Shown here one piece after another: positions 28,268 through 36,340 of a DNA stretch of 37,475 nucleotides. Under the pieces are notes generated by a model. It did no database searches. It saw only the letters and a program-made list of their open reading frames with translations, and was not told the DNA's origin. The position numbers and the translations under genes are program-made. How positions within the stretch are numbered: position 1 is the stretch's first letter; each line of letters starts with the position of its first letter. Origin of the DNA: an uncultured Bacilli bacterium (lineage in GTDB: Bacteria; Bacillota_I; Bacilli_A; RFN20; CAG-449); assembly GCA_947632435.1 (NCBI GenBank), contig CANRPC010000013.1:1-37475 (forward strand), in the 5' to 3' direction.

Positions 28268-29485
28268 TTATCCGTTTATTGAAGGAATAATAACATCTAC
28301 ACCACTTGAAGAAGTAACAACATTTGGTAATTCACCATTCCACTTTTCAAGATATTCTAAATATTTAACTAATTCTGTAACTATATTTAGATCTTCTTTA
28401 GTATGTGTTTCATCAAATACAATAGAATACTTAGTACTAGAGATTGAAGTTGTTATCGTGGTTAATTGTTTTGTTTCTTCATCTAAATTTGTTACCACAC
28501 CAACTTCTGGTTTTTCTATTACTTCTTCTTCTAAAGTAGTTTCCGAAATAACTTCTTTAGTATCATAATCCATTACTGTAGTTTCTATTTTTTTAATATA
28601 AGTTTCATTTACTTCAAAACCAATAGATTTAGCAAGTTCTACAAGTTTAATTGCCATAGCTTCCGCGGATGCACTAGCAATAATTTTTTGACTTTCTGCA
28701 TCACCACGAGCAGCTTCAATTTTCGCTTGTGCTTCAAGTTTTGCTACTTCTAATTCTTGTTCAGCTTTAGTAATTGCTGCTTCTTTTTGTTGTTCCGCAA
28801 TAACTTTATCCTCAACAGATTTTTCAAATTCTGCGGTAAAATCAATATTTGTTAAGTTAACCGCGGTAACCGAAACATAATATTTATCACCAACTGCTTC
28901 TTTAACCGCTTGTTCAACTTCTAAAGATATTGTTGAACGAGTTTCAATAATCTTCATCGCGGTATATCTAGATAATACTGCTTTTGTTTTATCATCAGTA
29001 ACTTTCTCAATACGTTTGCTTAATGAATCCATATTGTTATATTCAACTAAAATGTCTTTAGCTTTATCAGCATCTATTTTATATTGCACTGTCATTTTAA
29101 TATTCATAGTTTGAGCATCAGAAGAATAAGAAGCCGTATCAATATCTAACTGTTGCACTGTAGTATCAAAATAAATATATTGCGATACTAAGCAAAAGTC
29201 AAAATGTGTTCCTGGAAATCTAATACCCTTTACTTGACCTAATGTTTTTACAACTGCGACTTGTCCTGCTTCAACTTGATAAAATGAACCTGGAACAAAT
29301 ATAGCAAATATAGTGCTGATAATGATTGTTGCTGCTAATAATTTATTCTTATTTCCTTTCTCTTTCTTGTCTTTTGTAAAATCCTTAATATCTTTTTTTT
29401 CTTTATTAGCATTATTGATAATAAGGAAAACAACACTTAATCCTAATACCACAAAACTAATAATAAATAAAATTGTTCTAATCAT
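28268..29485 (-). CDS. SPFH/Band-7 (prohibitin-like) membrane protein
   Basis: Membrane-anchored scaffold protein of 405 residues. N-terminal helix (about 1-24), a Lys-rich stretch, then a second hydrophobic segment near 45-60 leading to PGSFYQVEAGQVAVVKTLGQ. The SPFH domain spans about 60-240 and ends in FEKSVEDKVIAEQQKEAAITKAEQELEVAK, a long coiled coil with Ala-Glu repeats (to about 290). The prohibitin-type C-terminal motif EKWNGELPNVV is present, but about 80 extra residues (about 300-380) of Thr- and Val-rich sequence separate it from the coiled coil. Start chosen at 29485 because AAGGAGG lies six bases upstream. It is transcribed alone behind a riboswitch-like leader and ends at a strong terminator. 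Related proteins form large rings or membrane microdomains; the role here is unknown. Confidence 0.88.
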   Translation of the reverse strand: MIRTILFIISFVVLGLSVVFLIINNANKEKKDIKDFTKDKKEKGNKNKLLAATIIISTIFAIFVPGSFYQVEAGQVAVVKTLGQVKGIRFPGTHFDFCLVSQYIYFDTTVQQLDIDTASYSSDAQTMNIKMTVQYKIDADKAKDILVEYNNMDSLSKRIEKVTDDKTKAVLSRYTAMKIIETRSTISLEVEQAVKEAVGDKYYVSVTAVNLTNIDFTAEFEKSVEDKVIAEQQKEAAITKAEQELEVAKLEAQAKIEAARGDAESQKIIASASAEAMAIKLVELAKSIGFEVNETYIKKIETTVMDYDTKEVISETTLEEEVIEKPEVGVVTNLDEETKQLTTITTSISSTKYSIVFDETHTKEDLNIVTELVKYLEYLEKWNGELPNVVTSSSGVDVIIPSING

Positions 29486-29704: not shown

Positions 29705-30166
29705 TTAAAACAAGAATTGATTATCTTGATATATTTTTATTGCTTTATTAGATCCTTTTTCTATTGCCTCTAATAAATATTTTTTTATCTTTTCATCTTT
29801 ATCATTTATCTTTAATGCAAGTTCAGCATATTTTATCATTCCTTTGATATATTTTAATTCTGCTGCTTTTTCATAATTTCTTAAGGCTTTTATCTTATCT
29901 TCTTTTACTTCTATTCCTTTTTCATAGAATTCTCCTAGAAAATAATATCCTTCTCCTATTTCTTTTTTACTTGCTAATTGATAATATTCTATAGCTTTTT
30001 CTAAATCTTGTTTTATTCCTCTTCCTCGATGATACATCTTTGCTAAAGATATATATGATAATTCATATCCTTCTTCACTTGCTTTTTTAAAGTATTCATA
30101 TGCTTTTTCATATTCTCTTTTATGATAATATTCATATCCCTTTTCATAATTAATATTTTTATTCAT
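29705..30166 (-). CDS. Sel1-repeat (SLR/TPR-like) protein
   Basis: Soluble helical-repeat protein of 153 residues. An N-terminal TPR-like helix pair (YEKGYEYYHKREYEKAYEYF) is followed by Sel1-type repeats with the A..W/Y..KAA...G...A...LG.xY..G pattern: ASEEGYELSYISLAKMYHRG, then ASKKEIGEGYYFLGEFYEKG, then AAELKYIKGMIKYAELA. No signal peptide is seen, so it is cytosolic as read. Its ATG overlaps the end of the small lipoprotein gene by 8 bases, and the ribosome binding site is weak (GGTTAAGAT), so coupling is likely. Sel1 repeats bind other proteins; a partner role to the neighbouring small peptide or lipoprotein is inference. Confidence 0.85.
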   Translation of the reverse strand: MNKNINYEKGYEYYHKREYEKAYEYFKKASEEGYELSYISLAKMYHRGRGIKQDLEKAIEYYQLASKKEIGEGYYFLGEFYEKGIEVKEDKIKALRNYEKAAELKYIKGMIKYAELALKINDKDEKIKKYLLEAIEKGSNKAIKIYQDNQFLF

Positions 30167-30422
30167 ATCTTAACCATGGTAATTCTACTGAATGTTGATT
30201 ATCTTTTATTGAAGTAGAATCTTCATTACTTGTTGTTTCAGATATTAATGATGAAGTATTATCACTAGTACTATTTATACTTGATGTATCGATATTATTA
30301 CTTATTGAAGAAGTATTATTACTATTATTGCTACTTGAAGTATTATTATTTACACATGATATTAAAATGATTGATAAAATTATTATTGATATTTTAGAAA
30401 TTATCCCAACCAATTGTTTCAT
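30159..30422 (-). CDS. Small Ser/Asn-rich lipoprotein
   Basis: Predicted lipoprotein of 87 residues. Hydrophobic signal, lipobox LISC with lipidated Cys23, then about 45 residues made almost only of Ser, Asn, Thr, Ile and Asp. A short non-repetitive tail HSVELPWLRYE follows. No enzyme domain is visible; it looks like a tether with a small exposed C-terminal peptide. The ribosome binding site AGGAGAAG lies inside the preceding small ORF and the gene overlaps that ORF by 29 bases in another frame. Its stop overlaps the Sel1 gene. Confidence 0.72.
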   Translation of the reverse strand: MKQLVGIISKISIIILSIILISCVNNNTSSSNNSNNTSSISNNIDTSSINSTSDNTSSLISETTSNEDSTSIKDNQHSVELPWLRYE

Positions 30423-30531
30423 CAGGCTCTTCTCCTAAGAAACCATTAAATTTTCTTTCTGCTGATTCAAGTATTACTTCTTTAAGATTTAATTTTTCTA
30501 TATTTAATTCTGGTTTAATATATGTTTTCAT
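30394..30531 (-). CDS. Small ORF of 45 codons, possible precursor or signalling peptide
   Basis: Short gene that is easily missed. AAAGGAG lies at 30541-30547, nine bases before the ATG, one of the best sites in the window. The peptide starts MKTYIKPELNIEKLNLKE and ends EEPDETIGWDNF. It is acidic, has no signal peptide and no cysteine. The MK-Y--PE start recalls short peptides of gut Firmicutes thought to be RiPP-type precursors or leader-like peptides, but I see no modification enzyme nearby. It begins 18 bases after the InlB-repeat gene and its last codons overlap the lipoprotein start, so it is translated within the same transcript. Real coding status is likely; function is unknown. Confidence 0.65.
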   Translation of the reverse strand: MKTYIKPELNIEKLNLKEVILESAERKFNGFLGEEPDETIGWDNF

Positions 30532-30549
30532 TATTTTTTACTCCTTTAT

Positions 30550-32439
30550 TTATAATCCTAAATCAATTTCACATGACAAAGCTAAATCAGATAAACTAAC
30601 TGATGAACCATCATCAAATTGAATTTGTTCACCTTCCATATCTAAATATCCATCTAAAATATCTTTTACACTCATTAACTTATAATTATTAAAATAATAT
30701 TGATTATTATTATCTTTCATATAAGAAACTGCGAATACTTTATCTATTAATTTGTCATTAGGTACATTTAAAGCAATTAAATAATTATCTTTTAAACTTG
30801 TATTAACTGATTTATGAGCATTTAATCCAGTAACTATACTATTAAAATCAGTTTCAGAATAGGATTGTTTTAAATTTTTAATTTTAACTATATTTTCATT
30901 AGTTTCATCATTAATTTTACTTAATAAAATTCCTGTTTCAGCAATCTCTGATTTATTATCTTCTGTTATAGTAAATGAATTTTTAAATCTTATTGATATA
31001 TCTTTAAAGTTTTTAAATGTACTACTTGCAATTTCTTCTTTATGTGTAAGAATTTCAATTTTCTTTAATCCAAAATTATAATTTCCAGCTATATAATGCA
31101 ATTCAATTTTTGTAACTTTTTCATTTATTTGTGATAAAATTAAATCAAATGTTTCTGATGCTTCTAATTCTTTTGTACAATTTTCAATTTCTTTATTTTC
31201 GTTATCATAAGAAATTAATTTTAAAGTTGAAGAACCTGATTGTTGTGATGAATTTTTATCACTAGATAAAGTAATTTGAATTTTAAATTCATTATCTATA
31301 ATATGATCTTGTTCTTCTAATTTATATGTAAGTATTGGATTCTTACTAATGTTGTTATTTAATTTGAGTGCACCGCCATTACCATAATAAGATATATTTG
31401 TATTTACTAGAATAGCTTTCTGATTATCCTTTTGTTGTAAATCTGAATCAGTTAACCCCTCTTTATAAGTTTCTGTAATTTTAGAGTTAAATTCTGCACA
31501 ATATGAAACAAATTTTGTTTTTTCTTCTTTCCCTTCTGTAAACGAAAATGCTAAAGAAGCTTGTGTTTCTGAATTTTGAAAGTCTTCGTTGACTGGAATT
31601 TTACTACTAGTCCAATGAGCAAAAACTTCTAGGTTGCTTGTAATAGGTGTCTCTTTAGTAAATGTATCATTACCATCACTTGCTAAATACCAACCTGCAA
31701 ATTCATATCTTAATCCATTTTCATCATCTTTTTTTGGTTCTGGTAATTCCTCAACTAATTTTTGATCTTTAGTTGTTAGTGTTTTTGTTTCAGATTGATC
31801 TTCTTCAAAATAACCTCCATTAGCGTTAAATTTTACTGTATACTCTGAAGAAGCAGAATTTAATTTAAATAATGATATAGGTTGCTGATTCATATATGAA
31901 GTTGATTTATAGTATCTAAATCTTGTTCCATTTTTTTTGTCATTATTATATCTAAGATAAGTATTGTTGCTAATAATATCTACACTACCATCGCTATTAA
32001 TAGTAATGGTATTTGAGTACTTTTGATTATCAGATTCTTCTAAATTATTTTTTGTTGTAGTATTCCCAATATATTTACCACTGCTACTTTTTATATAATA
32101 TTTACTACTTCCTGCATCTTCAATGGTAAAAGTACTTTTATTTAATTCTTCAGAATAATCAATTTGTTTAGAATCATTAATTGTAACATCAAATTTGTTT
32201 CCCTCTACATCCAATGTTTGTAAAGATCCATCAAATATAAGACTGTCTCCAATTGAAGCAATTAAATATTTTTCTCCTTCACCACAAATTAATTCTTCCT
32301 TACTAGTAATTTGCTTAAAATATTTTTCTTCTTCCGCTCTAACCTCTTGTACATCTTCCTTAGTTACGTTACGAACTAAAGCAAAACCTGTTAGCATTAA
32401 ACATGATGAGAGTAAGATTAATTTTTTCTTGATATTCAT
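30550..32439 (-). CDS. Secreted surface protein with InlB B-type repeat
   Basis: Exported protein of 629 residues. The Sec signal peptide is hydrophobic to about residue 22, with a likely cleavage after EVRA (about 36). An SSC in the signal is probably not a lipobox because the hydrophobic core continues past it. An N-terminal beta domain follows (about 40-195), with SSGKYIGNTTTK, INSDGSVDII and YLRYNN, a type seen in other surface proteins of gut Firmicutes. Next comes one InlB B-repeat (about 198-278: YTVKFNANGGYF to LRYEFAGWYLASDG and LEVFAHWT), then beta-rich domains to the C terminus. No LPXTG or C-terminal anchor is visible. Ribosome binding site AAGGGAG. It is preceded by a leader with a G10 tract and a terminator hairpin. 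Adhesion or glycan binding is likely but unproven. Confidence 0.82.
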   Translation of the reverse strand: MNIKKKLILLSSCLMLTGFALVRNVTKEDVQEVRAEEEKYFKQITSKEELICGEGEKYLIASIGDSLIFDGSLQTLDVEGNKFDVTINDSKQIDYSEELNKSTFTIEDAGSSKYYIKSSSGKYIGNTTTKNNLEESDNQKYSNTITINSDGSVDIISNNTYLRYNNDKKNGTRFRYYKSTSYMNQQPISLFKLNSASSEYTVKFNANGGYFEEDQSETKTLTTKDQKLVEELPEPKKDDENGLRYEFAGWYLASDGNDTFTKETPITSNLEVFAHWTSSKIPVNEDFQNSETQASLAFSFTEGKEEKTKFVSYCAEFNSKITETYKEGLTDSDLQQKDNQKAILVNTNISYYGNGGALKLNNNISKNPILTYKLEEQDHIIDNEFKIQITLSSDKNSSQQSGSSTLKLISYDNENKEIENCTKELEASETFDLILSQINEKVTKIELHYIAGNYNFGLKKIEILTHKEEIASSTFKNFKDISIRFKNSFTITEDNKSEIAETGILLSKINDETNENIVKIKNLKQSYSETDFNSIVTGLNAHKSVNTSLKDNYLIALNVPNDKLIDKVFAVSYMKDNNNQYYFNNYKLMSVKDILDGYLDMEGEQIQFDDGSSVSLSDLALSCEIDLGL

Positions 32440-32461
32440 TTTATTCTCCCTTTCTTATTAC

Positions 32462-32500
32462 AAATAAAAATGTCAAGAGGCAAAAAGTCCCTTGACATTT
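32462..32500 (-). terminator. Attenuator-like hairpin in the leader of the InlB-repeat gene
   Basis: Minus strand AAATGTCAAG (32491-32500) pairs with CTTGACATTT (32468-32477). Three more inner pairs follow around one mismatch, with a loop of U5. A U-rich tail leads to the ribosome binding site of the next gene. It lies between the small G10 ORF and the structural gene, so it can cut off transcription of the latter. Confidence 0.75.
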
Positions 32501-32545
32501 AAATTCATAATCTTATTTATTTTAGAGTGGTTAAAAAGATTTGTC

Positions 32546-32617
32546 TTATTTATTCGAGTAGAGTACCCCCCCCCCGTTTATATTAATGCTATTTAAATAA
32601 GTCTTTAAATTAAACAT
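32546..32617 (-). CDS. Small ORF (23 codons) containing a G10 tract, candidate leader peptide
   Basis: ATG at 32617 is preceded at nine bases by GAGAGG. The peptide as sequenced is MFNLKTYLNSININ, three Gly from the tract, then VLYSNK and stop. The G10 run (32566-32575) is a likely slippage site. With nine or twelve G the frame stays open for thirty more codons (YSTRINK...NVKGLFAS) and ends with TGA inside the 3' arm of the downstream terminator. With eight or eleven G it stops at once. Whether it is translated is not known; the ribosome binding site and its position ahead of a terminator support a leader peptide. Confidence 0.45.
   Translation of the reverse strand: MFNLKTYLNSININGGGVLYSNK
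32566..32575. repeat. Homopolymer C10/G10 tract
   Basis: Ten C in a row on the plus strand in a genome where runs of four C are already rare. Such tracts undergo slipped-strand mispairing and are typical of phase-variable genes. The exact length could also be a consensus artefact of assembly. Confidence 0.95.
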
Positions 32618-32716
32618 TATTTTTAACCTCTCTTTACTTTTAACTTACTAGATAGGCTCTAATTTTGCAATATTTTTTAAAAAATTTACTTAAATTGTCA
32701 TAGATTTATTTTTTAA

Positions 32717-32753
32717 TAAAAAAAGAGAGATTAAAAATTAATTTAACCTCTCT
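32717..32753 (-). terminator. Intrinsic terminator of nifJ
   Basis: Minus strand AGAGAGGTTAAA (32742-32753) pairs with TTTAATCTCTCT (32724-32735) over twelve bases including one G-U, with a six-base loop and a U7 tail, 17 bases after the nifJ stop. The first arm is repeated exactly at 32622-32633. Confidence 0.9.
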
Positions 32754-32770
32754 AAATATTAATTTAACAA

Positions 32771-35700
32771 TTAGTCACAAAGTCTTTTGAATCTCTTGTA
32801 ACGGAGTTGAGCATATTCTTGTGATTTTGTTAATAATTCTTCAGCATGAGCAGGATTGACCTTTGGAAGTTGAGAGAATCTTGTTTGAGTCATAACAAAA
32901 TCTCTGAATTTTGTAAAGTCTGGTTCTGCACAATCCATTTGCATTGGGCATTTGCCTTCTTTTTCAAGACGTGGATCATATCTGAAGATTGGGAAGTATC
33001 CGCATTCGACAGCTTCTTTTTCTGTTTTTTGAGCATTTGCTAATCCACCTTTTAATCCATGAGCTTGACATGGTGAATAACAAATAATTAATGAAGGTCC
33101 ATCGTAGCTTTCTGCTTCTTTCATAGCTTTAATAGCTTGCATTTTATTAGCACCCATAGAAATTTGAGCAACATATACATTTCCATAGCTGATTGCCATC
33201 ATTGCAAGATTCTTCTTTGCTGTCTTTTTACCAGAAGCAGTGAATTTAGCAATAGAACCTGTTTGAGATGATTTAGATGATTGTCCACCAGTATTTGAAT
33301 AAACTTCTGTATCAAGGACTAAGACATTTACATCTTCTTCATTTGCAAGAACATGATCTAAGCCACCATAACCAATATCGTAAGCCCAACCATCGCCTCC
33401 GACAATCCATACAGATTTATCAACTAAATCTCTTTCATATTCTAAGACTTCTTTAACTTCTTGACATTTACTTGCTTTAACTAAAGAAACTAAATTTTTA
33501 ACTATGCCACGAACATAATCTCTATCTTTAATATGCGATACATAATCATCAATAGCTTTTTGTAATTCTTCTTCACAATTTGCTTTATTTGTTTCTAAAA
33601 TACGAATAATTTGAGTAAGTTTATAGTCTGTAGCAACACGCATACCATAACCATATTCAGCATTATCTTCAAATAAAGAGTTTGCCCATGCAACACCATT
33701 TCCATCTTTATCGGTACAGAAAGGTGTTAATGGAGTTGAACCATTGTAAATTGAAGAACATCCAGTAGCGTTAGCCACTAACATATCTTTACCAAATAAT
33801 TGAGTTGCTAAACGATAATATGGAGTTTCACCACATCCAGCACAAGCACCAGATACTTCAACATATGGCATTAAGAATGATGCACCTTTGACAGTTTTAA
33901 CATCAAAATATTCACTCTTATATGTTACATGTTTATATAAGTAGTCTGCTGCAGGTTCTTGTACATCAAATTGAGATTTAGCTTCAACCATTTCCAAAGC
34001 TTTTTTAGTAACCATGTTACCATTTTCATCTTTGACTTTCTTACCTGGACATTCAACAACACATAATCCACAACCAACACAGTTTTTAGGTGTAATTTGA
34101 ATTCTGAATTTTAAATCTCCAACTTTTGGTCCCATTGCTTTTAAAACATCATCTTTAACATTTTCTGGAAGACCTTTTACTTCTTCATCAGTTAATAAGA
34201 AAGGACGAATTGTAGCATGTGGACAAACAAAAGCACATTGATTACATTGAATACAATTTTCTTTATGCCAAAGTGGAACACGATCAGCAATAGAACGTTT
34301 TTCCATAAATGTTACATCATTTCTCATAGTTCCATCAAGTAATTCATAATCTAAGAATTTGCTTGTTGGTAAATCATAACCATCTAAGGAACCAATTACA
34401 TTGACATATGAATCAAAATATTCATCGCCTGTTTTTGCATAAACTCTTGATCCATCAAGATTTTTCCATTCTTCTTTAACTTTAATTTCAATTAAACCTT
34501 TTGCACCTTCATCGATAGCCATATAGTTCATTTGAACAATATCGTCACCTTTTTTAGCATAGGATTTCTTAGCAAATTTTTTCATCCATTCTTGTGCTTC
34601 ATCATATGGCATAATATTTTGATTTAAATAGAAGAAAGATGATTGAAGAATAGTATTTGTTCTACGACCAAGTCCAATTTTTGCTGCAATTGCATTAGCG
34701 TCAATAATATAGAACTTAGCATTCTTTTCAGCGAGTTGTTTTTTAACTCTATTTGGAAGTCTTGCTTCTAATTCTTCAGCAGGAATATCAGTATTTAATA
34801 AGAATGTTCCACCTTTTTTCAAACATTTAATCATATCAAATTTGAAAAGATAGGAATCAAGTGAACAAGATAAGAAATCAGCATGTTCAACATAATATGT
34901 AGAATGAATAGGATTCTTACCAAATCTTAAGTGTGATCTTGTAACACCACCAGCTTTTCTAGAATCGTAAGCAAAATAAGCTTGAGCATATTGATGAGTT
35001 GCATCACCAATAATCTTAATAGATGATTTGTTCGCAGAAACTGTACCATCAGATCCTAAACCATAGAATAAGCATGATGTGTAATCTCCACTTACATGGA
35101 ATGAATCATCAACAGGAATTGATAAATGAGTTACATCATCAACGATTCCAACAGTAAATCCTGTCCATTGTTTTTTAGCATCTAAGAAATCATAAACTGC
35201 TTTAATGTGTTTTGGTTGAGTATCTTTAGATGAAAGTCCATATCTACCACCTAAAATAACATCAAATTTTCTTCCAACTTGTTGTAATGCAGCGACAACA
35301 TCAAGATATAAAGGTTCTCCAGATGCACCAGATTCTTTTGTACGATCTAATACAGCGATTTTCTTAACTGAATTAGGGATTACATCTGCTAAATGTTTCG
35401 CAGAGAATGGTCTATATAAATGAACTTTAACTAAACCAACTTTTTCTCCATTTTTATTCATTTCATCGACTACTTCACGAGCAGTTTCAGTAACTGAACC
35501 CATAGCAACGATGACTTTTGTAGCGTCTTCTGCACCATAATAAACAAATGGAGCATATGTTCTACCAGTTAATCTTGAAGCTTCTTTAAACATTTCTTCA
35601 GCAATTGGTAAAACAGCATCTAAATGAGCATTTTGAGCTTCTCTACCTTGGAAATAAATGTCATCATTTTCCGCACCACCTCTTGTAACTGGATGAGTAT

Positions 35701-36340
35701 GTGGATTTAATGCTCTCTTACGATATTCTTCTAATTTTTCTTGATCAATTAATTTATTCCAATGTTCATTATCAACAAATTCAACATTTTGAATTTCATG
35801 TGATGTTCTAAATCCATCAAAGAAATGAATAACTGGACTTTGTGATTTAATAGCAACTAAGTGAGCAACTGGAGCTAAATCAGCACATTCTTGTACTGAA
35901 TGAGCACAAATCATTGTCGCACCAGTTTGACGACAAGCATAAATATCTTGATGATCACCGAAAATTGATAATGCTCTTGTAGCAAGGGATCTTGCAGAAA
36001 CATGTAAGACTGCTGGCAAACATTCACCAACCCATTTATATATATTTGGAATCATCAATAACAATCCTTGAGATGCAGTATATGTTGTAGCTAAAGCTCC
36101 AGCTTGTAAAGCACCGTGAACTGTTCCTGAAGCACCAGCTTCAGATTGCATCTCAACAACTTTTACTTGTGTTCCAAAGCAGTTTTTCATTCCTTCTGCA
36201 GCGTATTGATCAACAAGTTCAGCCATTGTTGAAGATGGCGTAATTGGGTAAATACTTGCTACTTCAGTAAAATTATATGAAGCTAAAGCAGTCGCGGTAT
36301 TACCATCAACGGATAGAAAAGTTTTTTTGATTTCTTCCAT
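32771..36340 (-). CDS. nifJ: Pyruvate:ferredoxin (flavodoxin) oxidoreductase
   Basis: Oxidises pyruvate with CoA to acetyl-CoA and CO2 and passes electrons to ferredoxin, the central step of anaerobic fermentation. A single-chain enzyme of 1189 residues, full length. Domains in order: pyrimidine-binding domain I starting YPITPSSTMAELVDQYAAEG; gamma domain; the two-cluster ferredoxin insert CIQCNQCAFVCP and CVGCGLCVVECP near 685-750; then CAGCGETPYYR with a further cluster ligand. The TPP-binding motif is DGWAYDIGYGGLDHVL followed by TEVYSNTGGQSSKSS. The oxygen-labile type is consistent with strict anaerobiosis. AGGAGG lies eleven bases before the ATG, and the gene ends at a strong terminator. 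A TATAAT is present upstream at 36378-36383 on the minus strand. Confidence 0.98.
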   Translation of the reverse strand: MEEIKKTFLSVDGNTATALASYNFTEVASIYPITPSSTMAELVDQYAAEGMKNCFGTQVKVVEMQSEAGASGTVHGALQAGALATTYTASQGLLLMIPNIYKWVGECLPAVLHVSARSLATRALSIFGDHQDIYACRQTGATMICAHSVQECADLAPVAHLVAIKSQSPVIHFFDGFRTSHEIQNVEFVDNEHWNKLIDQEKLEEYRKRALNPHTHPVTRGGAENDDIYFQGREAQNAHLDAVLPIAEEMFKEASRLTGRTYAPFVYYGAEDATKVIVAMGSVTETAREVVDEMNKNGEKVGLVKVHLYRPFSAKHLADVIPNSVKKIAVLDRTKESGASGEPLYLDVVAALQQVGRKFDVILGGRYGLSSKDTQPKHIKAVYDFLDAKKQWTGFTVGIVDDVTHLSIPVDDSFHVSGDYTSCLFYGLGSDGTVSANKSSIKIIGDATHQYAQAYFAYDSRKAGGVTRSHLRFGKNPIHSTYYVEHADFLSCSLDSYLFKFDMIKCLKKGGTFLLNTDIPAEELEARLPNRVKKQLAEKNAKFYIIDANAIAAKIGLGRRTNTILQSSFFYLNQNIMPYDEAQEWMKKFAKKSYAKKGDDIVQMNYMAIDEGAKGLIEIKVKEEWKNLDGSRVYAKTGDEYFDSYVNVIGSLDGYDLPTSKFLDYELLDGTMRNDVTFMEKRSIADRVPLWHKENCIQCNQCAFVCPHATIRPFLLTDEEVKGLPENVKDDVLKAMGPKVGDLKFRIQITPKNCVGCGLCVVECPGKKVKDENGNMVTKKALEMVEAKSQFDVQEPAADYLYKHVTYKSEYFDVKTVKGASFLMPYVEVSGACAGCGETPYYRLATQLFGKDMLVANATGCSSIYNGSTPLTPFCTDKDGNGVAWANSLFEDNAEYGYGMRVATDYKLTQIIRILETNKANCEEELQKAIDDYVSHIKDRDYVRGIVKNLVSLVKASKCQEVKEVLEYERDLVDKSVWIVGGDGWAYDIGYGGLDHVLANEEDVNVLVLDTEVYSNTGGQSSKSSQTGSIAKFTASGKKTAKKNLAMMAISYGNVYVAQISMGANKMQAIKAMKEAESYDGPSLIICYSPCQAHGLKGGLANAQKTEKEAVECGYFPIFRYDPRLEKEGKCPMQMDCAEPDFTKFRDFVMTQTRFSQLPKVNPAHAEELLTKSQEYAQLRYKRFKRLCD

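Follow-up and report, generated by a model that had tools for sequence, protein, structure and literature searches.

At homopolymer contingency loci, slippage in a run of G residues switches a surface or defence gene, acting either on the spacing of a promoter or on the frame of the gene itself; at the locus described here, such slippage would instead alter the frame of a leader on which a terminator depends. The coupling of a leader frame to a terminator is itself familiar from the pyrBI operon of Escherichia coli, in which the leader ORF (pyrL) overlaps the terminator, a translating ribosome that follows RNA polymerase closely keeps the hairpin from forming, and UTP is sensed through pausing of the polymerase. 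While leader frames reach the terminator both in pyrBI and in the locus described here, pyrBI has neither a repeat tract nor phase variation.

The combination of phase variation with an attenuation-like form of control was genetically proven for the pil1 and pil3 loci of Streptococcus gallolyticus (Danne 2014, PMC3894217). In pil1, a promoter, a ribosome binding site (RBS) and an ATG are followed by a short leader ORF that contains GCAGA repeats (22), by a premature intrinsic terminator, and then by surface genes; the short frame ends 49 bp before the terminator, longer frames end near or in the hairpin and raise transcription, and, at pil1 and pil3, mutation of the leader ATG or RBS lowers expression (PMC3894217). 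A search of the literature returned pil1/pil3 as the one described case, and found no further slip-prone leader-peptide repeat that gates a terminator.

The DNA analysed here, a stretch of 37,475 nucleotides from an uncultured gut Bacilli bacterium that is referred to throughout as the window, is contig 13 (C13) of a 1.68 Mb draft genome of 42 contigs and approximately 26-27% GC. At the sequence level, the window contains the features of the pil1 type: an upstream RBS and short leader ORF, a frame-setting repeat inside that ORF, and a terminator-like hairpin that lies between leader and gene and within which a longer frame ends. Both loci carry a slip-prone repeat in the leader ORF, and their short frames stop at comparable distances from the hairpin (49 bp in pil1 and 48 nt in the window). 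They differ in several respects: (i) the repeats of pil1 are GCAGA pentanucleotides, whereas that of the window is a G10 mononucleotide tract; (ii) both out-of-frame states of pil1 are ON, whereas one of three phases is predicted to be ON in the window; (iii) pil1 is a pilus operon and the window holds a single secreted-protein cassette; and (iv) the window leader has a stem (P1) over its RBS, as well as a tract-less relative with an open long frame, found in a genome (G007) of another genus of the same family. No sequence relatedness between the two loci is claimed, and function was proven for pil1, whereas we infer it for the window. While the principle is already known from S. gallolyticus, the mononucleotide tract, the lineage, the extra stem over the RBS and the paralogous cassette with variable bodies are new here, and the version in the window apparently arose independently.

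The leader and the gene behind it

A first-pass annotation, made from the nucleotide sequence alone, had placed an RBS, an ATG, a G10 tract and a terminator hairpin on the minus strand in front of a gene for an InlB-repeat surface protein, and the positions of all of these leader elements proved correct to the base (Table 1). The protein itself, 629 residues in length, carries, besides a signal peptide, one Listeria-Bacteroides (InlB B-type, List_Bact) repeat (PF09479, E=4e-9, Pfam), and that part of the description stood; neither an LPXTG motif nor a C-terminal membrane anchor was seen in it, however, and 'secreted' is therefore a safer label than 'surface'. A small gene downstream probably lies on the same transcript.

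Since the pyruvate:ferredoxin oxidoreductase gene upstream has a separate terminator, the hairpin in front of the secreted-protein gene belongs to the leader transcript. The gap between that hairpin and the gene amounts to only 28 nt and is without a -35/-10 pair; because no promoter fits there, transcripts should arrive at the gene by reading through the hairpin. A TTGACA in the 3' arm of the hairpin was considered as a -35 element of the gene and rejected, since no -10 is suitably spaced from it and the hexamer reads TTGGCA in G007. Comparison of the window with Rfam gave no leader or riboswitch match at or above the gathering score.

Table 1. Positions of the leader elements, the putatively regulated gene and neighbouring features in the window.
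Feature	Position	Strand	Basis or remark
Pyruvate:ferredoxin oxidoreductase gene (upstream)	32771-36340	minus	
Own terminator of that gene	32753-32722	minus	sequence
Predicted leader promoter	TTGCAA 32670-32665, 17-nt spacer, TAAGTT 32647-32642	minus	sequence
Leader ORF RBS, AGAGAGG	32633-32627	minus	sequence; lies in 5' strand of stem P1
Leader ATG	32617	minus	sequence
Long leader frame (9 or 12 G), MFNLKTYLNSININGGGYSTRINKTNLFNHSKINKIMNLNVKGLFAS	32473..32617	minus	ends in terminator 3' arm; predicted ON
G10 tract, predicted slip site	32575-32566	minus	inside leader ORF
P1 3' strand, TTTTTAACCACTCT	32524..32537	minus	folds
Intrinsic-terminator-like hairpin, AAATGTCAAGGGACTTTTTGCCTCTTGACATTT	32500-32468; with U run to 32466	minus	sequence and folds
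Structural gene RBS, AAAGGGAG	32446..32453	minus	sequence
629-aa secreted-protein gene (ATG 32439)	30550..32439	minus	predicted regulated gene
87-aa gene	30159..30422	minus	conserved region next to paralog C40

Reading frames, related leaders and RNA folds

The frames of the leader were computed for tracts of 6-14 G. With the 10 G of the assembly, a 23-aa peptide (MFNLKTYLNSININGGGVLYSNK; 32546..32617, minus strand) ends 48 nt short of the hairpin, at a TAA at 32548, and with 8 G or 11 G the stop falls at 32552, 52 nt before it; with 9 or 12 G, the frame extends for 47 or 48 aa to a TGA at 32475, which lies 25 nt into the hairpin and thus in its 3' arm. The long frame is found only with 9+3n G. 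Early stops with 8, 10 and 11 G and a stop in the 3' arm with 9 or 12 G were what the first-pass annotation had described, and these claims were borne out; its figure of approximately 8% for the chance of a long open frame was conservative, in that dinucleotide shuffles leave the post-tract part of the long frame open in 3.5% of cases and the complete 47-codon ORF in 1.2%.

Two homologous leaders bear on this arrangement. Within the same genome, C26:20363 encodes a paralog whose leader and signal peptide are 97% identical to those of the window over 363 nt. The first-pass annotation had proposed a search for the same leader before other surface genes, and this paralog carries it with an interrupted tract (GGGGAGGGGG), having the same length as that of the window and, as assembled, leaving the leader in the short frame. 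The long frame of this copy opens once one G is taken out. The second homologous leader is that of G007, in which a gene on contig C3 is 30% identical to that of the window over its full length, and is preceded by a leader with the same promoter pattern, GAGAGGTTA, ATG, CTTTTTAACCACTCTAAAATAA and terminator, without a G tract. In the alignment of the leaders, C26 and G007 both retain a TTGCA...N17...TAARTT promoter pattern, and GAGAGGTTA forms an invariant core at the leader RBS in 3/3 leaders (window, C26 and G007). G007 likewise retains the terminator hairpin, which there differs by one G-U change and has a loop of greater length.

On the proposal made at the outset, a homologous leader should keep the hairpin and a long frame without stops, and that of G007 does both: its ORF (MLKIYFNNIKRNWISSSWIKETTLFNHSKISDIMNLNVKGTF) runs uninterrupted in the frame matching the 9 or 12 G frame of the window, and its stop lies in the loop of the hairpin, 19 nt from where the hairpin begins. 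The other two frames of the G007 leader close after 1 and 5 codons, and its 39-codon frame is open by chance in 2.2% of dinucleotide shuffles. The window and G007 have the permissive frame in common, and it is the tract that interrupts this frame in the window. Inside the leader ORF, one indel that separates the two sequences has 6 nt, and the stretch that holds the tract has 33 nt in G007 and 37 nt in the window, where 9 G would make it 36. Counted from 9 or 12 G, each length difference within the ORF is divisible by three, which does not hold outside it, and a 4-nt indel in the loop falls at or after the stop. Most of the base differences within the ORF alter the amino acid, so that there is no clear sign of selection on the peptide itself; across these genera, the alignments indicate that the reading frame and the RNA structure are what is kept in the leader.

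When 279 genomes of the order were searched at the DNA level and with a covariance model, the leader was recovered only in its own genome and in G007, and tests of covariation and of codon-level selection are weak because only two species carry it. One weak DNA match, in genome G129, was set aside as chance, with no leader lying before a gene on that strand. A pattern search with TTTAACCACTCTNAAATAA, covering genome and viral contigs, gave only one match that looked relevant by origin, the G007 contig (CANQAG010000003.1, from an uncultured Bacilli MAG), the other matches, in unrelated taxa, being taken as a group to be chance; a protein-pattern search for homologs in genome contigs yielded none that was confirmed.

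The leader of the window folds with a z of -5.1 relative to shuffled sequences, 0/200 of which folded as well. The core of the hairpin has an energy of approximately -13.7 kcal/mol, its outer stem reaches 32511-32456, and its U run in the window comprises only five residues. In the same folds, a stem of approximately 13 bp, P1, is formed by pairing of AGAGAGGTTAAAAA (5' strand, 32633-32620) with the 3' strand given in Table 1, and covers the leader RBS once the RNA reaches approximately 110 nt; the probability of this pairing is 0.88 in the window and weaker, at 0.27, in the register tested for G007. Neither P1 nor the pil1/pil3 precedent had figured in the first-pass annotation. When a ribosome-sized footprint was placed at each stop codon in a fold simulation, terminator pairing fell from 1.00 to 0.00 at the long-frame stop (9 or 12 G) and from 0.97 to 0.01 at the stop of the G007 leader, and stayed at 1.00 at the short-frame stops (8, 10 and 11 G). 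A scan of 498 genes found a hairpin-plus-T site immediately in front of 11 of them, and a long G run accompanies it at the window gene alone.

A proposed leader switch and its alternatives

We consider it likely that a phase-variable, translation-coupled transcription attenuator controls the secreted-protein gene. Transcription would start at the promoter approximately 25 nt upstream of the leader ATG. With 8, 10 or 11 G, the ribosome on the leader would stop approximately 50 nt before the terminator, the hairpin would form and most transcripts would end (OFF); with 9 or 12 G, the ribosome would cross the 5' arm and loop of the hairpin and stop within it, the hairpin would not form, and the polymerase would read on (ON). 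Replication slippage in the G tract would toggle the gene between these states, and P1, by lying over the leader RBS, would probably limit late or repeated initiation. The assembled 10-G allele is accordingly only a predicted OFF state; the leader of C26 is likewise predicted to be OFF and little able to slip, and that of G007 to be permanently permissive. Slippage at the G10 tract, termination at the hairpin and ribosome-mediated antitermination are steps that we infer, and the model that joins them is well supported by the comparison of leaders.

This attenuator is favoured by several sets of observations: (i) the logic of frame by tract length, the open long frame of G007 in a leader without a tract, and the in-frame indels; (ii) the simulated folds, the excess of runs of 9-11 G, and the occurrence elsewhere of tracts in mixed frame states; and (iii) the promoterless gap of 28 nt, the combination of hairpin and G run that is unique among 498 genes, and the precedent of pil1/pil3. 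Counting against it are the leader of C26, which is tolerated in the short frame and with a tract that is broken and not slip-prone, the presence of the leader in two species only, the amino acid changes that most differences in its ORF cause, and the window's short U run. The tract, too, is represented by one assembled length only (10 G), with one genome per species.

The absence of a tract from the G007 leader, the interruption of that in C26 and the conservation of the leader fold would also suit an ordinary attenuator or regulatory RNA that is not phase-variable and that uses P1 and the terminator to respond to translation rate or some other signal, with the G tract a neutral, recent insertion that breaks the ORF; this is nevertheless unlikely, given that runs of 9-11 G are maintained genome-wide and that the tract sits where the conserved frame is toggled. 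A related candidate, in which the ribosome would stall at glycine (GGG) codons, was ruled out on the grounds that the GGG codons are missing from the G007 leader. It is also quite improbable that the tract is a promoter-spacer switch, in which slippage would alter the distance between -35 and -10 elements and hence transcription directly. Such switches are common in the genome and the order, and the window tract matches the promoter switch on C29 at 21/21 positions (AATATAAACG10TA), but the window has AGCATT at the place of the -35 (1/6 of TTGACA) and TACTCT at that of the -10 (3/6 of TATAAT), whereas true spacer switches have TTGACA at 6/6 and a -10 mostly at 4-6/6; furthermore, the AAAC before the tract is already found in the tract-less leader of G007, and a transcript that started at the tract would still meet the terminator before the gene. 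A search for a promoter through the tract, on both strands, gave no acceptable -35/-10.

Homopolymers of at least nine residues are slip sites for RNA polymerase and for ribosomes, and either machine, by slipping on the G10 tract, might bring some of the long frame into use without a change in the DNA, which would give graded expression, including basal expression from the 10-G allele; we give little credence to this reading, since the genome's other tracts have the look of contingency loci that act at the level of DNA. That the tract length or the arrangement of the leader is an artefact of collapsed paralogs might be suspected in a draft of 42 contigs, in which a third paralog (C40) ends at a contig end in this same repeat. 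The leaders of C13 and C26 were assembled separately, however, with distinct flanks and several base differences, and the leader recurs in the genome of another species (G007), all of which makes an artefact exceedingly improbable.

With the phase-variable attenuator as the preferred reading, the tract-less relative and its permissive frame suggest that such switches can arise by insertion of a tract into an existing translation-coupled attenuator. The class becomes searchable in genomes, with the predicted ON or OFF state readable from sequence.

The leader heads one of three paralogous cassettes (window 30001-32800, C26:20000-22075 and C40:1-7978), the third of which is truncated in its signal peptide, where the contig ends, so that its leader was not assembled. 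Near-identical leaders (where assembled) and signal peptides are followed by divergent bodies and conserved 3' ends; in the paralogs and G007, the bodies diverge (about 30%) and the C-terminal ends converge again, and the region at approximately 30001-30600 is conserved beside C40 at 88.7-92.5% (blastn), and in G007 at 74%. This layout raises the possibility that bodies are exchanged by recombination behind one leader. A more speculative and rather doubtful extension is that the leader serves as the shared expression head of a small antigenic-variation system, in which the attenuator, carried between cassettes by recombination, would choose whether a protein is made and which, with some copies parked OFF by an interrupted tract.

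Long G runs in the genome and the order

In 844 kb of the genome, G/C runs of 4, 5, 6, 7 and 8 residues numbered 362, 54, 5, 1 and 0, and those of 9-11 residues numbered 11, as against approximately 0.33 runs of at least 8 expected under a first-order Markov model and approximately 0.02 under a second-order model; the whole genome has 12 long tracts. A G10 tract in a genome of 26-27% GC is beyond chance.

At least five long tracts (on C2, C3, C21, C29 and C32), and probably also that on C16, are flanked by a perfect TTGACA on one side and a -10 on the other. Tracts of 9-10 G are found exactly nine bases after TTGACA at C2:114391, C3:29, C16:13458, C21:10402, C29:11119 and C32:10135, with a TATAAT-like box directly after the tract in most; a G7 at C2:88493 is also placed nine bases after TTGACA. 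These promoter-spacer switches precede genes for a DUF4190 protein, an acyltransferase-3 protein and a lipoprotein-like product, among others. Across the order, the pattern TTGACA-N7-11-G7+ was present in 44/279 genomes (a reversed control pattern gave 1 match), and a TATAAT-like box (at least 4/6) followed within two bases of the tract at 34 of the 37 distinct sites inspected, which suggests promoter-spacer phase variation throughout the lineage. The leader in the window adds to the indications that phase variation is a major way of regulating genes in this uncultured Bacilli lineage; a literature search returned no report that pairs RF39 with phase variation.

Additional tracts in the same genome (G000) lie inside genes. 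A gene for a PglX / type IIG-like methyltransferase (C1:104434-107028) is split by a G11 at 106284, with 12 G rejoining its frames, and has the appearance of a defence-type gene that is phase-variable and was assembled in its OFF state. A 785-codon ORF (C1:95892-98248), the post-tract part of which has no Pfam match, is split by a G10 at 96228 and would be open at 9 G, and a family 2 glycosyltransferase gene (C19:28905-30033) carries a G9 at 29146 in frame (ON state). This mixture of in-frame and out-of-frame tracts is the pattern of putative contingency loci in mixed states. A further G9 (C9 on the other strand), at C1:75637-75645, stands immediately in front of a TTGACA with which a cre-like AAGCGCT site overlaps; the position of this tract relative to the promoter is unlike that at the other switches.
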